A stretch of DNA of 64,000 nt, from positions 1-64,000 of the forward strand of contig NZ_JAIXCQ010000003.1 of the NCBI RefSeq assembly GCF_020297055.1, written 5' to 3'. This DNA comes from Isoptericola luteus. Lineage in GTDB: Bacteria; Actinomycetota; Actinomycetes; Actinomycetales; Cellulomonadaceae. Shown one piece after another: positions 2,541 through 52,878 of this stretch. Position 1 is the stretch's first letter. The number at the start of each line of letters is the position of its first letter. A model generated the notes under the pieces. It did not search any database and had not been told where the DNA came from. It worked only from the letters and a program-made list of their open reading frames with translations. A program made the position numbers and the translations under genes.

Positions 2541-4184
2541 TCATTTCTTCTCGAATCCGCTTGGCAGCGGGAATCGTCGTGCAAGATATTTGGAAAGCAG
2601 TCCGACAGCCCGGTCGGCCCTCGGCCCGGGCTGGAGCTGCGTGTCGTTGAGGCAGAACACGTCGTGTCCTTCGTCGTCGATCAACGTCAGGTCGCGCAGA
2701 GTCCTCAGCGTGGAGATGTCACGATAGTGATACCTCAGCGATCCGATCACTGCCCGGCCGGTCGCGTGCGCGTAGTAGTGGTACAGCGACGAAGCAACCG
2801 AGATGTCGTCGGGATGCCGGAACACCGACGCTGCGACCCGCGCGAACTCTTCCGGGAACCGCGCCTCCATCTCCGCCAGGACGTCGCGACGCTGCGGGTG
2901 GGGAGTGTGCTGGAACTTGTTCGTCACCGTGCGCCCGAACGTCCGCTCCAGAAGCTCCCGGTTGTTCTTGGCCGCTGACAGCACCGGCAGGTCACAAGCG
3001 CTCGGCGGGCCTACGTCCAGGAGCATGGTCGACAGGAAGAACCGGGTGAGCCCGTTCGCCTCGAAGAACTGCTCGGGCGTGACGGGACGACCGAAGAACA
3101 CGTCGTCGTTGAGGTACAGGTAATGGTCGGCCAGCCCGTCGATGTGGTGGAGCTGCGACTCGATCGCATGCGAGTTGAACACTGGGAGCACCGACGGGTC
3201 GCGGAAGATCTCGCGATGGTGCACGACGTTCACGCGAGGGTCGCTCTGGTCGAGCCACTCCGGGACCTGCCCGTCAGTGACGATGTGTACCTGCCGGACC
3301 CAGCCCGCGTACATCTCCAGCGACCGCAACGAATATCGCAGCTCGTCGCGGGCGGTGAATCGCGAGGCGGCCATCGCCGTCGCGTTGTGGGCACCCTCGT
3401 CGATCGACCGTAACGCCGCCTCCTTGCGCCGTAGCCAGCGGGGGTCGCTCCCGTCCACCCAGGTGTAGACCACGTCGACGGGAAACTGGACGTCCAACAG
3501 GTGCGGTGAACGAAGCACCGCCCCTCCGCCCTGGGCGGTGGCGACGGACCATGCCTGTGGGGTGAGGTAGGGGAACGACGAGTTCGGGCCGGGTGCGACG
3601 CGCGTGTCCTGCACGTGCCCGCCACCGTCAACCCGCGCCGTGCCCACCGGGACGGTGGGCCACAGCTCGACGGTGACGCCGTGCTCCGCGTTGCCGACGA
3701 CCAGGCCCGACGGTGAGGCGAGCACTCGGAAGAGGGTGAATCGAGGCGGCAACGTCCCGACGCGCCGTACCCACGACGCCAGGGGACGATGCCACGCACG
3801 CCACCCGCTGCCGAGGGCCACTCCCCACTCACGGTCGCTGGAAAGAGCCTTCAGGGCGCTCGCGACGGCCAGTTCGTCGTCACCGTCGAGAGCGACGAAC
3901 GCGCGCCCCTCCACCGGCCGGGGTAGCACCACATGGGCGATCCCGGCACGATCGAGGGCGGCGCGCAGCGACTGCAGCGTCTGCTCCTCGACCTGCGGCG
4001 ACTCAAAGGCGTTGACGATCCGGGCGTCGTAAGCCACACCACCGAGCCTTGCGGCCACGTACCCCGGCGACGGCCGACGTGACGCGTCGAGCCAGGCTCC
4101 GACTCGGGAGGCCAGGCGAAGTCGCAACCGTCCCGCTCGGCGCGCCACGGCACGCGCTGCTCCGACAATGACTCGCTTCGCCAT
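2541..4184 (-). CDS. Stealth-family sugar-phosphate transferase (copy 2)
   Basis: This 547-residue paralogue of the downstream gene has CR1 near 234-248 (DVVYTWVDGSDPRW), CR2 near 275-312 (ARDELRYSLRSLEMYAGW), CR3 near 336-370 (FNSHAIESQLHHIDGLADHY, then LNDDVFFGRPV) and a CR4-like end. The family moves sugar-1-phosphate to a growing phosphoglycan. Conserved Asp and Asn residues of the family (TWVDGSD, LNDDV) are present in both copies, so both look active. It is the first gene of the minus-strand pair and faces the dehydrogenase at 4596 across a 411-base divergent gap. The N-terminal ~30 residues are very basic (MAKRVIVGAARAVARRAGR), which suggests membrane association. Two unlike copies suggest two different linkages or acceptors in one polymer. 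Confidence 0.85.
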   Translation of the reverse strand: MAKRVIVGAARAVARRAGRLRLRLASRVGAWLDASRRPSPGYVAARLGGVAYDARIVNAFESPQVEEQTLQSLRAALDRAGIAHVVLPRPVEGRAFVALDGDDELAVASALKALSSDREWGVALGSGWRAWHRPLASWVRRVGTLPPRFTLFRVLASPSGLVVGNAEHGVTVELWPTVPVGTARVDGGGHVQDTRVAPGPNSSFPYLTPQAWSVATAQGGGAVLRSPHLLDVQFPVDVVYTWVDGSDPRWLRRKEAALRSIDEGAHNATAMAASRFTARDELRYSLRSLEMYAGWVRQVHIVTDGQVPEWLDQSDPRVNVVHHREIFRDPSVLPVFNSHAIESQLHHIDGLADHYLYLNDDVFFGRPVTPEQFFEANGLTRFFLSTMLLDVGPPSACDLPVLSAAKNNRELLERTFGRTVTNKFQHTPHPQRRDVLAEMEARFPEEFARVAASVFRHPDDISVASSLYHYYAHATGRAVIGSLRYHYRDISTLRTLRDLTLIDDEGHDVFCLNDTQLQPGPRADRAVGLLSKYLARRFPLPSGFEKK

Positions 4185-28784: not shown

Positions 28785-28797
28785 GCGTGGCACGCCG

Positions 28798-28850
28798 ACC
28801 GAGCCCGTCGAGACCTCGACTCAAGAAAGCTCGGTCTCGACGTGCTCGGT
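28798..28850. terminator. bidirectional hairpin between cysC and the ABC ATPase gene
   Basis: ACCGAGCCCGTCGAGACC pairs with GGTCTCGACGTGCTCGGT with one mismatch in 18, around a 17-nt loop, between two convergent genes. A stem with a similar GAGCCCGTCG core is found at 52822-52878, so this is probably the genome's common intrinsic terminator type. Confidence 0.65.
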
Positions 28851-28860
28851 CCCGCCAGGC

Positions 28861-40480: not shown

Positions 40481-41769
40481 CCGGACCGCTCCGGGTCCTG
40501 GCCGTCGCCGACTCCGACTCCTACCTCAAGTGGGCCGCCTGGACCGTGGCCGGCCTGCGCGACGCCCTCGGCACGCCCGACGGACCGTCGTTCACCGACG
40601 AGCCGCCGCTCACCGGCGAGCCGCCGCTCACCGGTGAGCCGCCGCTCACCGGTGAGCCGCCGCTCACCACGGCGCCGCGCTCGTCCGTCGTCGTGGTCCG
40701 CTCCCCCATCGCACCCACGGCGGACCAGGCGCGGGCCGCCGTCGCGGGCACCGGCCTGCCCGCACCGCCCGTGCTCGGCACGGGTGCGCTGCGGCGGCTC
40801 GTGCGCGACACGCGACCCGACGTCGTCCTCGTGGCGGCCACCGGGCCGGTCGCGGAGCTCGTCGCGCGGCAGGTGGTGCGGGCCGCGGGGCCGCGCCGCC
40901 CCGCCCTGGTCACCGGTCTGCCCGGGATGGCCCTGCCCGCGACCCCGCAGGGCACCGGCTGGCGACGCTGGTGCGACGCGTTCGTCGTGCACGGGCGCGT
41001 CGAGGTCGAGGCCTATGCGACGGCGTTCGCCGCGCACGGTGTGCGGCCCGCGCTGCCCCTCGCCCCGCTGCCGTTCCTCGCCCACGGGCCCCGACCCGCG
41101 TCCGGTGCCGTGCGGCGCGTGCTGTTCGCCGCCCAGGCGAAGGTCCCGGCCGGGCGGTCCGACCGGGTGTCCCTTCTCGACGGGCTCGCCCGGCTGTCCG
41201 CCGACGGCCCGGAGGTCGTGGTCAAGCTGCGGGCGCGCGCCGGCGAGCGGCAGACGCACAACGAGGAGCATCCCCTCGACGCGCTGTGGGAGTCGGAGCA
41301 CGCCCGGCTCGGGCACCCTGCCGGCACCCTCCGGTTCGCCACCGGGCCCATGACGGACCAGCTCGTGGACGGCACCGCCCTGCTCACGGTGAGCTCCACC
41401 GCCGGGCTCGAGTCGCTCGCCGTGGGGCTGCCGACGGTGTTCCTCGCCGACTTCGGCGTGCGCGCCGAGCTGCTCAACGAGCCGTTCTCGACGTCGGGCT
41501 GCATGCGCCGCCTGGACGACGTCGCCGCGACGCTGGCCGCCGGCGGGCCCGACGTCGACCCTCGGTGGGCCGACGACCACTACCTGCAGCGAGCGCCGTC
41601 CGAGCTCCCTGGCGCCGTCGCGGACCTGGTCGCCCGGGCCCGCGCCGGGGCGCTCCCGACCCGTCCTGTCCGCCCCTGGTCCGCGCACCGGCACGCGTAC
41701 ACCGTGCTGCGCTCCGCCCTGCCCGTGGCCACTTCCCTCGCCCTTCCCGTGCGCCGAGCACGCGGCTGA
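40477..41769 (+). CDS. putative glycosyltransferase of the DUF6716 type, partner of the polysialyltransferase-like protein
   Basis: This 430-residue protein begins LRVLAVADSDSYLKWAAW, which I recall as the start of the DUF6716 putative glycosyltransferases found beside polysialyltransferase-like genes in actinobacteria. It ends in a GT-B-type half with RRVLFAAQAKVP, VVVKLRARAGERQTHNE, ALLTVSSTAGLESLAVGLP. It is translationally coupled to the upstream gene by an ATGA overlap. A run of four EPPLTG units (from four 18-base repeats at 40600-40671) sits in the N-terminal domain near residue 42-65, forming a proline-rich insert. Function is inferred from neighbours: synthesis of a nonulosonic-acid chain. 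Confidence 0.65.
   Translation: MTGPLRVLAVADSDSYLKWAAWTVAGLRDALGTPDGPSFTDEPPLTGEPPLTGEPPLTGEPPLTTAPRSSVVVVRSPIAPTADQARAAVAGTGLPAPPVLGTGALRRLVRDTRPDVVLVAATGPVAELVARQVVRAAGPRRPALVTGLPGMALPATPQGTGWRRWCDAFVVHGRVEVEAYATAFAAHGVRPALPLAPLPFLAHGPRPASGAVRRVLFAAQAKVPAGRSDRVSLLDGLARLSADGPEVVVKLRARAGERQTHNEEHPLDALWESEHARLGHPAGTLRFATGPMTDQLVDGTALLTVSSTAGLESLAVGLPTVFLADFGVRAELLNEPFSTSGCMRRLDDVAATLAAGGPDVDPRWADDHYLQRAPSELPGAVADLVARARAGALPTRPVRPWSAHRHAYTVLRSALPVATSLALPVRRARG
40600..40671 (+). repeat. four tandem 18-bp repeats inside the DUF6716 gene
   Basis: GAGCCGCCGCTCACCGGY occurs three times and then once more with a changed end, coding EPPLTG units. The copies differ only at silent or final positions, so the tract is young and probably length-variable. 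Confidence 0.85.
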
Positions 41770-41808
41770 CGTCGCCATGACGGTTCCATGACGGTTCATG
41801 GCGGCGTC
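41768..41808. terminator. imperfect hairpin between convergent genes
   Basis: GACGTCGCCATGA pairs with TCATGGCGGCGTC with one mismatch in 13, around a 15-nt centre. It starts at the stop codon of the plus-strand gene and stands before the stop of the minus-strand GT2 gene. Confidence 0.5.
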
Positions 41809-41831
41809 GACCGCGTGCTCGGCGTAGGAGA

Positions 41832-45339: not shown

Positions 45340-46602
45340 ATGGTGGACGCCGCGATGATGAACACCCCGCAGATGACCCGCACCGAGACCCTGCTCCGGC
45401 TCGACAACCCGGTGCGGCCCTACGCCTGGGGGTCGACGACGCACATTCCGGAGCTCCTCGGCCGCGACACCGACGGCCGACCCGCCGCCGAGCTGTGGCT
45501 CGGCGCGCACCCGGGGGCGCCGTCCCGCGTCCCGGCACCGGACGGCGGTTCCCACGCCCTGGGCGACCTGGTGCGCCACGACCCGGAGGCCCTGCTCGGG
45601 GCCCGCGTGGCCGACCGGTTCGGCCCCCGGCTCCCGTACCTGCTCAAGGTGCTCGCCGCCGAGCAGTCCCTGTCGCTCCAGGTCCACCCGCGGCCGCACC
45701 TCGCACGGGCCGGCTACCAGCGGGAGCGTCGTGCGGGGCTGGCCGCCGACGACCACCGTCGCTCCTTCCACGACGAGCACCACAAGCCCGAGATGATCGT
45801 GGCCCTCAGCGCCTTCGAGGCGCTCGCCGGGTTCCGCAGCCCACGGTCGGTGCGCGCCCTGCTGGACGGGCTCACCGGACGCCTCGTCGACCGGGTGCGG
45901 GCGGAGCTCGAGCGCCGGCCCTCCGCCGCCGGGCTCCGTGCCGCCACCGAGGTCCTCGTCGACGCGCGAAGCTCGGCCACCCGGGCCACGGACGTCGCGC
46001 AGGCCGTGGCCTCCGTCGCCGCCCGGCACGCCGCCGCCACGTCGCCGGGCACCGCGCGCGCCGACGCGACGGTGCTGCTGCTCGCCCGGCAGCACCCCGG
46101 CGACCCCGGCGCGCTCGTGTCGCTGCTGCTCCACCGGGTGACGCTCGAGCCCGGCGAGGCGATGTTCGTCCCCGCCGGCGAGGTGCACGCGTACCTCTCC
46201 GGGCTCGGGGTCGAGGTGATGGCCTCGTCGGACAACGTGCTGCGCGCCGGGCTGACCGCCAAGCACGTCGACACGGCCGCCCTGCTCGAGTGCGCCTCGT
46301 TCGCACCCCGGCCGCCCGCGCGGCCGGAGGTGAGCGTCTCCGGCGGCGAGAGCGTCGTCACGACGTACCGGGCCCCGGTCGAGGAGTTCGCCCTGACGTT
46401 CGCCGACGTCGTGCCCGGCGAGCCCGTGGCCCTCGCGCCCGACGGCCCCCGCGTCGTCCTCGTCCTCGACGGCGAGGCCCGGCTGCTGACGAGCACCGGG
46501 GACGTCGTGCTGCGGCGCGGCGAGTCGTGCTTCGTACCCCATGCCGCCGGCTCCGTGACCGTCGACGGTGCCGCACACCTCGTCTGCGCCTGGACCCCCT
46601 GA
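45340..46602 (+). CDS. manA: mannose-6-phosphate isomerase, class I (copy 1)
   Basis: This 420-residue cupin enzyme has PYAWGSTTHIPELLG, AELWLGAHPGAPS, LLKVLAAEQSLSLQVHPRP with zinc-ligand Gln and His, HHKPEMIVALSAFEALAGF with the Glu ligand, and VPAGEVHAYLSGLGVEVMASSDNVLRAGLT. It interconverts fructose-6-phosphate and mannose-6-phosphate, feeding GDP-mannose, or the mannose-6-phosphate that some Kdn pathways use. ATG 45340 has GGAG five bases upstream; the frame before it looks non-coding. A second manA lies at 60304-61527. Being next to the NeuA-HAD-NeuB frame, this copy may serve the nonulosonic-acid pathway. Confidence 0.93.
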   Translation: MVDAAMMNTPQMTRTETLLRLDNPVRPYAWGSTTHIPELLGRDTDGRPAAELWLGAHPGAPSRVPAPDGGSHALGDLVRHDPEALLGARVADRFGPRLPYLLKVLAAEQSLSLQVHPRPHLARAGYQRERRAGLAADDHRRSFHDEHHKPEMIVALSAFEALAGFRSPRSVRALLDGLTGRLVDRVRAELERRPSAAGLRAATEVLVDARSSATRATDVAQAVASVAARHAAATSPGTARADATVLLLARQHPGDPGALVSLLLHRVTLEPGEAMFVPAGEVHAYLSGLGVEVMASSDNVLRAGLTAKHVDTAALLECASFAPRPPARPEVSVSGGESVVTTYRAPVEEFALTFADVVPGEPVALAPDGPRVVLVLDGEARLLTSTGDVVLRRGESCFVPHAAGSVTVDGAAHLVCAWTP

Positions 46603-46640: not shown

Positions 46641-46710
46641 GCCGAACAGGAGGTTGACACCGTTATGCGCGGCACATTGCCGCCATAACGGTGTCAACCT
46701 CCTGTTCGGC
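46641..46710. repeat. long palindromic element, left copy
   Basis: A 27-bp arm (46641-46667, GCCGAACAGGAGGTTGACAC then CGTTATG) pairs perfectly with 46684-46710. Inside lies one bulged base, a further 5-bp stem (GCGGC/GCCGC) and a 5-nt loop (ACATT). The same structure recurs at 47827-47896 with only the bulge and loop bases changed. It lies between manA and the DUF559 gene, both on plus. Each strand of the stem holds AGGAGG and TTGACA. Confidence 0.9.
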
Positions 46711-46748
46711 GGGCGACTGTCCACAGATGTGGCGGAGGGGCCCCGGAG

Positions 46749-47843
46749 ATGATCGGGCGGTGCTGCGATGTCTGGGTGCGAACTCCTGCCCCGATGCCCC
46801 CGAGCCTTCTCGACCTGGCGGAGGCGCAGGAAGGCCTGCTGAGCACCGAGCAGTGCGGCCGGCACGGCGTGGGTGCTTCACGCTGCTCGCGCGCCGTCGC
46901 CGGCGGCCGATGGTCGCGCGTCACGCGGGGAGTCGTCGACACCATCACCGTCCCACCGGCGTCCCGCACCGCGTTCGACGTCCCCCGCTCCCCCGTCCCT
47001 CCGCTCTCGGTCACCAGCGCGCCGGATCTCGTGCCGTGGCCTCCCCGGTCGGACGGCGACCGGCTGTTCGGTCACCTCCGGCGACGTGCCGGCTGGCTCG
47101 GGCACCTGGCCCACGGCGCCACGTCGATCCCGGTCGGGACGTCCGCGCTGGCGTTCCTCGGCATCGAGGGCACCCCTGTCACCGCGGCGCCGGACGTCGC
47201 GCTGCCGTGGGCCGCGAAGCGGCAGCCACGCGCCGGGGTCCCGCTGCGGCAGTTCGACGACGGTCTGACGACGGTCCCGTTCGGCGACGGGCGCACCGGC
47301 GAGATCCGCATCGCGGCTCCCGAGTGGGCGCTCGCGCAGGCGGTGCCGGAGCTCACGATGGAACGTGGTCTCGCGGTGCTGGACTCGGCCCGCAGACTGC
47401 GCCTGGTCGACCGCCACGGCGTCGAGCGCTCGCACGACCACGCCAGAGGGCGCCGTGGCGTCGCCGCCCGTCACGACCTGTGGGACCTCGCCGACCCGCG
47501 GGCAGCGTCACCGCTGGAGTCGTTCGCGCGATGGCAGTGCATCGCGGAGGGCGTGCCCCCTGACACGCTGCAGCTCGTGGTGCGCGACCTGGCGGGCGCC
47601 CCGTTCGCCGTCGGGGACCTCGCGTGGCGCCTGGGCCCCACGCAGTGGCTCGTCGGCGAGCTCGACGGCTACGAGTGGCACGACGGTGATCCCGCACGCG
47701 TGGTACGAGACCGTGACCGGGACAACGCCTTCACCGCGCTGGGGGTGCGGCTGCTCCGGTTCGACGCCGGGCACCTCCGACGCGGCGAGGTGGGCACCGC
47801 CGTCCGCCGAGCTCTCCACGCCTACCGCCGAACAGGAGGTTGA
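46749..47843 (+). CDS. DUF559-type (Vsr-fold) endonuclease-like protein with AbiEi-like N-terminal domain, bracketed by palindromes
   Basis: The 364-residue protein has an N-terminal winged-helix part like AbiEi antitoxins (LLDLAEAQEGLLSTEQCGRHG, then GGRWSRVTRGVV), a middle part of unknown role, and a C-terminal DUF559/Vsr-like nuclease core. The core reads VGELDGYEWHDGDP, RDRDRDNAFTALGVRLLRFDAGHLR, with the acidic pair E-x-D and the DR.RD helix. Such proteins are common in actinobacteria and their role is not established. The last residues (RRTGG) and the TGA stop lie inside the left arm of the right palindrome, so the element has supplied the gene's end. The start ATG 46749 has a GGAGG upstream; ATG 46794 is an alternative. 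Nothing links it to sugar metabolism. Confidence 0.72.
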   Translation: MIGRCCDVWVRTPAPMPPSLLDLAEAQEGLLSTEQCGRHGVGASRCSRAVAGGRWSRVTRGVVDTITVPPASRTAFDVPRSPVPPLSVTSAPDLVPWPPRSDGDRLFGHLRRRAGWLGHLAHGATSIPVGTSALAFLGIEGTPVTAAPDVALPWAAKRQPRAGVPLRQFDDGLTTVPFGDGRTGEIRIAAPEWALAQAVPELTMERGLAVLDSARRLRLVDRHGVERSHDHARGRRGVAARHDLWDLADPRAASPLESFARWQCIAEGVPPDTLQLVVRDLAGAPFAVGDLAWRLGPTQWLVGELDGYEWHDGDPARVVRDRDRDNAFTALGVRLLRFDAGHLRRGEVGTAVRRALHAYRRTGG

Positions 47844-47896
47844 CACCGTTATGGGCGGCAGATCGCCGCCATAACGGTGTCAACCTCCTGTTCGGC
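47827..47896. repeat. long palindromic element, right copy
   Basis: The arms 47827-47853 and 47870-47896 are identical to those of the element at 46641-46710 and pair perfectly over 27 bp. The inner bulge (G in place of C) and the loop (AGATC in place of ACATT) differ. It overlaps the end of the DUF559 gene and stands before the convergent glf stop. It may also act as a terminator. Confidence 0.9.
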
Positions 47897-47913: not shown

Positions 47914-50918
<3,005 letters not shown>

Positions 50919-52821: not shown

Positions 52822-52878
52822 GGTCGAGCCCGTCGGGCCCGTCGAGACTGGGACTCGACGGGCCCGACGGGCTCGACC
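52822..52878. terminator. strong hairpin terminator with a 25-bp perfect stem
   Basis: GGTCGAGCCCGTCGGGCCCG then TCGAG (52822-52846) pairs perfectly with 52854-52878 around a 7-nt loop. It lies 11 bases downstream of the amidase stop and upstream of glfT2, so it separates the two same-strand units. Its GAGCCCGTCG core is shared with the hairpin at 28798-28850. Confidence 0.8.

Follow-up and report, generated by a model that had tools for sequence, protein, structure and literature searches.

Our analysis points to what is probably a dispersed-palindrome system in Isoptericola luteus and its relatives, analogous to REP/RAYT and served by an unrelated enzyme. The window, i.e. the whole stretch of 64,000 nucleotides that was analysed (contig NZ_JAIXCQ010000003.1, positions 1 to 64,000), carries a predicted nuclease gene between two closely similar palindromes. 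On balance we lean towards the view that these represent an undescribed class, in Actinomycetes, of palindromes that spread through genomes and are run not by a transposase but by a Vsr-type nuclease whose reader part derives from AbiEi. This would be an independent origin of the REP-type partnership, and solo palindromes might also serve as homing sites for the gene of their enzyme, which could enter them either way round. The features of the window locus are as follows.

46641..46710, no strand: left palindrome with 27-bp arms, one bulged base and a 5-nt loop
46749..47843, plus strand: predicted AbiEi-like / Vsr-type (MTES_1575-like) nuclease gene, 364 aa as listed
47508..47816, plus strand: putative C-terminal nuclease part, residues ~254-356, with boundaries from our reading of the alignments
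47827..47896, no strand: right palindrome, between the nuclease gene and glf, which converge

In direct comparison the two palindromes, of 70 nt each, are identical at 67 of 70 positions and fully so in their 27-bp arms; the mismatches fall on the bulged base and on two positions of the 5-nt loop. This agrees with an earlier sequence-only reading of the locus, which had claimed two near-identical 70-bp palindromes around the gene with differences confined to bulge and loop. The same reading had placed the last five codons and the stop of the gene inside the right element and the cassette between manA and glf. Both statements hold, since the ORF ends 17 nt into the right palindrome and the neighbouring genes are manA (ending at 46602) and glf (47914-49050, minus strand), which converge on each other. 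The left palindrome is separated by 38 nt from the listed ATG and by 65 nt from a likely GTG start. In both alignments the column of V10 of the window protein is occupied by M in nearly all homologues, so that the real start is probably the GTG at 46776. DNA folding z-scores of the two palindromes were -15.4 and -15.6, neither is followed by a T-run, and no known RNA family reached its gathering score between 46500 and 48100. A 23-nt arm had 4 matches with at most 3 mismatches in the window versus 0.00 expected from 100 shuffles. This palindrome type is not limited to the nuclease gene, as 7 copies occur at 5 places in the genome of the window. A second pair of the type (L015:2864-2933 and 3614-3683; genome G000, C12:126363-127182) encloses 680 bp; a decayed nuclease was ruled out there (no significant profile match, best tblastn E 0.02), and no tRNA was found at that locus. 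Such a pair around DNA free of nuclease remnants speaks against the proposed system. Palindromes of other kinds were seen as well. Another family (GTCGAGCCCGTCGAGAC...) is found at 28797-28851 and 52822-52878 of the window and also at L186 behind an SDR gene, in intergenic positions with no nuclease of this kind adjoining, and at 41752-41824 of the window, where two convergent genes meet, there is a solo palindrome whose outer form (GCCGAGCAC...GTGCTCGGC) is similar.

The enzyme is predicted from its sequence to be a fusion of an AbiEi-like module for DNA binding with a nuclease domain of the Vsr type. The sole Pfam match in the window protein was AbiEi_4 at residues 20-62, in accordance with the AbiEi-like part of the earlier description. 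The DUF559/Vsr-like part that had also been proposed was not recovered from the protein itself (no such Pfam domain at E≤1) but was matched in homologues: AbiEi_4 was found in 26, the MTES_1575 REase domain in 20 and DUF559 in 3 of 40 aligned homologues. The MTES_1575 domain is termed a novel Vsr(-fold) REase in the survey PMC3710099. Both homologue alignments show no variation at E257, D290, E304, D306, H311, D321 and R324, of which the first four were taken as the predicted catalytic residues. The window protein had no match in NCBIfam, a sequence search of solved structures with A1 gave 0 matches at E≤1, and plasmid and phage records contained no relative of it at 1e-5. An AlphaFold2 model of the enzyme, built with 44 sequences (mean pLDDT 91.2), yielded a single Foldseek match with E≤0.001, the AbiEi antitoxin 6y8q (E 3e-5). 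Far weaker matches were an R2 retrotransposon protein (E 0.07), TnsA (E 0.11) and I-Bth0305I (E 1.1, TMt 0.63), and these likenesses of the modelled fold are only suggestive.

The nuclease family is multi-copy in Isoptericola and its relatives, with relatives of the window gene in 42 of 58 related genomes and 1-12 matching stretches in each among the matches listed. Flanks were analysed for 81 loci from these matches, leaving out the duplicate L136 as well as L118, which lacked a tblastn match; 65 loci were classed as close homologues (tblastn E<1e-24) and the other 16 as distant. A hairpin was counted if it was 40 nt or longer and no more than 350 bp away from the gene; by this rule there was one upstream at 40, one downstream at 54 and one on both sides at 35 of the 65 close loci. 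In 33 of these 35 loci the best match of the left copy was its own right copy, a result seen in 0 of 10,000 permutations, and own pairs scored 42.3 on average versus 9.0 with other loci, the top of 10,000 permutations being 15.8. The sequence-only reading had suggested checking whether copies flank nuclease genes in relatives, and at these loci they do. It counts against a partnership of nuclease and palindrome that at 30 of the 65 close homologues a hairpin went undetected on one side or on both. Among the distant loci 4 of 16 had hairpins on both sides, of which L077 and L126 were matched by eye, while L125 and L137 had ordinary GC-rich, unmatched ones. A set of 49 named loci from Isoptericola, Cellulosimicrobium, Oerskovia, Cellulomonas, Luteimicrobium and others contained 13 that were already counted; the 36 left had a left hairpin in 21, a right one in 29 and both in 18 cases, and the own partner was best in 13 of these 18 (0 of 10,000 permutations as high). 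Outside the family, 148 genomes of the class were covered, 86 had a match, and 29 of their best loci were read with slightly laxer limits. Nine of them were two-sided; seven score at least 25, L385 scores 17 with a common arm and L392 is unmatched, all as scores without permutation. Two further observations concern homologues at a greater distance. In G012 like palindromes (CGAGATCGACC...; L126:1870-1936 and 2980-3048) bracket a distant DUF559-like homologue, so the link of nuclease and palindrome may extend past this clade, and homologues at L408 and L409, in another family, have matched pairs of the type GCAGACGCAAAAGCCCCC.

Palindrome type tracks the nuclease and not the genome. A palindrome was present for 55 of 61 proteins, and single-linkage clustering gave 24 types, six of which have more than one member; these six need 6 changes on the protein tree, where the minimum is 5. 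The largest type is a loose one, and three of its 15 members are distant. The Mantel rho was 0.22, with 0 of 2000 permutations as high, and none of 52 pairs of paralogues from the same genome had alike palindromes. In three of four sets the arms vary by compensatory changes beyond those in re-dealt halves; for the window's own 70-nt type (7 copies) the covariation was hardly above that level, at 21 versus at most 20.

Searches for dispersed copies gave numbers that differ strongly between genomes. The pattern GCCGAACA-N40-56-TGTTCGGC had 80 matches in 13 of 58 genomes and 0 for the reversed control, with 29 in G013, 17 in G028, 10 in G008, 6 in the genome of the window and 5 in G010; one of the 80 (in G037) resembles coding sequence. 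Six genomes of the genus with a close homologue of the nuclease had 0-29 copies and the other twelve 0-4 (p 0.003, with phylogeny ignored and the close-homologue cut-off for the six picked after the matches were known). The pattern CGAGCGTCTCTG-N20-45-CAGAGACGCTCG had 67 matches in 10 genomes (control 0), namely 17 in G012, 14 in G009, 10 in G017 and 8 each in G008 and G016, whereas the other 13 genomes of the genus had 0-3. The five rich genomes are the ones in which a nuclease between palindromes of that type was seen (p 0.0005, phylogeny ignored); nuclease type is partly defined by its flanks in these copy-number tests. A contrary point is that seven genomes of the genus outside the close-homologue and type groups nevertheless have a few copies, e.g. 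4 in G004 and 3 in G011. For 21 of 32 solo copies the nuclease pair of the own genome was the strictly best match, with 0 of 5000 label permutations as high, although the two solo copies of G016 showed no match to the resident pair (0.42). This matching to the resident type answers part of the weakness that phylogeny and flank-defined types bring to the copy-number tests. For a third palindrome type 7 genomes had been predicted beforehand as rich, and their forward counts were 15, 9, 1, 12, 8, 2 and 3 versus 0-6 in the other 11 genomes and 0-7 chance matches in the reversed control, so that the prediction came true only in part; counts of hairpins only were made by eye for this type.

Placement was determined for 82 copies with flanking DNA, of ~147 matches, with genes taken from a codon-composition gene finder. 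Of these copies 72 were intergenic and 10 overlapped predicted ORFs. The intergenic copies lay between convergent (26), tandem (38) or divergent (7) genes or at an edge (1), and convergent gaps make up ~18% of the intergenic bases at those loci. The nearest gene 3′ end was at a median distance of 16 bp, and within 50 bp in 62 of 65 measurable copies. Since copies are found behind unrelated genes near their 3′ ends, the palindromes may double as terminators, and such a role in termination besides is likely. The earlier reading had named palindromes behind unrelated genes, acting as ordinary terminators, as an observation against a mobile cassette, and the location near the 3′ ends of unrelated genes fits that description in part. 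Insertion into the loops of older hairpins was also considered (flank complementarity 4.58 versus 3.72 of 10 in shuffles, 0 of 2000 as high), but is not claimed, as positions 1-2 look like the element's own.

Several sites were found in different states in related genomes. Between manA and glf the cassette has one orientation in the genome of the window and in G010 and the opposite one in G003, G007 and G008; an extra gene separates manA from the cassette in G003, and the second palindrome is degenerate in G003 and G007. The cassette is absent, with manA adjoining glf, in G002, G009, G011 and G012, and a different gene lies between them in G004, G013, G016 and G017. In G004 a solo palindrome like that of G010 is present beside glf without a nuclease (L169:3956-4017). 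For this survey the stretches fetched from G005, G006 and G015 did not contain manA, and G001 and G014 had no glf match among those listed. Junctions of manA and glf without the cassette do exist, contrary to the possibility, raised in the earlier reading, that relatives always carry the gene and have no empty sites. A solo palindrome behind purU is missing next to the same neighbour in G003, G004, G005, G010 and G016. Upstream of an M18 aminopeptidase gene three different types occur in G000, G013 and G014 and the site is empty in G001; the types of G013 and G014 resemble palindromes beside nucleases of their own genomes (L055, L061). At one site in Cellulosimicrobium and relatives the cassette is present in G169, G170, G166 and G172 (fetched) and in G178, G174, G028 and G024 (by BLAST alone), and inverted in G167, G177, G171 and G173; the site has a solo palindrome in G175, a degenerate solo in G168 and a truncated gene in G176. 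With regard to a conventional insertion-sequence comparison, empty sites exist, and the intergenic junctions are too diverged for base-by-base reading.

From these observations we infer an enzyme that would bind and cut the palindromes and spread them. Clades of AbiEi-like/Vsr-type nucleases each go with a palindrome of their own, ~50-75 bp long, with a copy on either side of the gene and others dispersed in the genome, for the most part shortly after a stop codon. The AbiEi-like part would bind the palindrome arms, and by analogy palindrome reading by the N-terminal module is plausible, since AbiEi of S. agalactiae is described as binding inverted repeats in its promoter (PMC7319586). The nuclease would then nick or cut at the palindrome, or at the hairpin extruded from it, and repair would carry copies into intergenic sites or from one such site to another. 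Recombination of the two flanking palindromes would delete the gene, with a solo copy left behind, or invert it. In addition, the copy 5′ of the gene probably serves as an operator and the one 3′ of it as a terminator. That the nuclease belongs with the palindromes as a RAYT does with its REPs had already been proposed from the window alone, and matched pairs, type tracking, copy number in relation to nuclease presence, the resident match and the empty sites speak for it. The inverted sites, the compensatory changes, the invariant nuclease residues, the AbiEi fold and the lack of Y1 transposases in the 36 family genomes are further points in favour of the proposed system. A non-autonomous insertion unit, the alternative offered at that time, is not favoured.

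Regulation might also be the only function, though we consider this unlikely. The protein would then be an AbiEi-type autoregulator with an upstream operator and a downstream terminator, the dispersed copies would be further regulatory sites or terminators that arose by rare duplication or gene conversion, and the nuclease would have no function in mobility. AbiEi-type antitoxins are described as autoregulating via inverted repeats (PMC7319586), copies do sit at gene 3′ ends and the left palindrome is commonly ~50-70 bp 5′ of the gene. However, regulation and termination alone would not account for sequence-matched pairs that flank the gene and differ from clade to clade; invariant nuclease residues, solo sites that are empty in relatives and one orthologous site with several types, each like the resident type, are further points against it. 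Quite improbable appears a homing cassette, in which the nuclease cuts a solo palindrome, repair inserts the gene, and recombination of the flanking copies restores the solo, the palindromes being old target sites. As the palindrome is symmetric, the gene could be inserted either way round. Both orientations, a solo palindrome and an empty state at the same sites speak for this reading, and so does the weak fold match to a homing endonuclease. Yet the orientations are equally explained by inversion through recombination, homing alone leaves solo palindromes at new sites unexplained, and insertion would leave intact targets beside the gene and hence no protection against self-cutting. That ordinary transcription terminators flank the gene by chance is very improbable: placement behind stop codons and the unmatched GC-rich hairpins on both sides of L125 and L137 would suit it, but it is contradicted by the matching of left and right copies, by a type that follows the nuclease and by the missing T-run at either window element.

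Several known systems share parts with the one we propose here. With the AbiEi antitoxins of type IV toxin-antitoxin systems the enzyme has in common the N-terminal AbiEi_4 and the fold match to 6y8q, in agreement with an AbiEi DNA-binding and C-terminal fold; it differs in the fused nuclease domain, and the manA-glf interval of the window showed no AbiEii-type nucleotidyltransferase gene as a partner. Vsr-type homing endonucleases are enzymes of mobile elements, and the catalytic part of the modelled enzyme may weakly resemble I-Bth0305I. This match has an E of 1.1 only, and here there is no intron or intein context and palindromes lie on both sides. The MTES_1575 REase (PF18741) is the same Pfam domain as in 20 of 40 homologues; there, however, it belongs to a large protein that has HEPN and helicase domains among others, and the pertinent part of the survey makes no mention of palindromes (PMC3710099). 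We found no description in the open-access literature that links this protein family with palindromes. The proposed system would provide a testable role for many genes of actinobacteria that now carry an AbiEi or DUF559 annotation, and dozens of matched enzyme-palindrome pairs are available for assays of binding, cutting and specificity, which makes the spread of repeats directly testable.

To our knowledge the RAYTs have so far been the one enzyme superfamily connected with REP-type palindromes. Y1_Tnp (PF01797) was found in none of the 36 family genomes (G000-G035); the 2 genomes with a match, among 58 in all, belong to other families. Palindromes as RAYT cargo are therefore ruled out and the system is not REP/RAYT, although the anatomy is alike. 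As in REP/RAYT, palindromes flank the enzyme gene, same-type intergenic copies are dispersed in the genome, each enzyme type has its own palindrome type beside it, and enzyme and repeat diverge together. RAYTs are single copy and thought to be incapable of moving themselves (PMC3116915). The differences are an AbiEi-like module with a Vsr-type nuclease in place of an HUH/Y1 transposase, single palindromes of 50-75 bp in place of inverted pairs of short REPs, and few copies per genome (at most 29 matches). A second, unrelated enzyme in a REP-type layout would mean that this partnership arose more than once.
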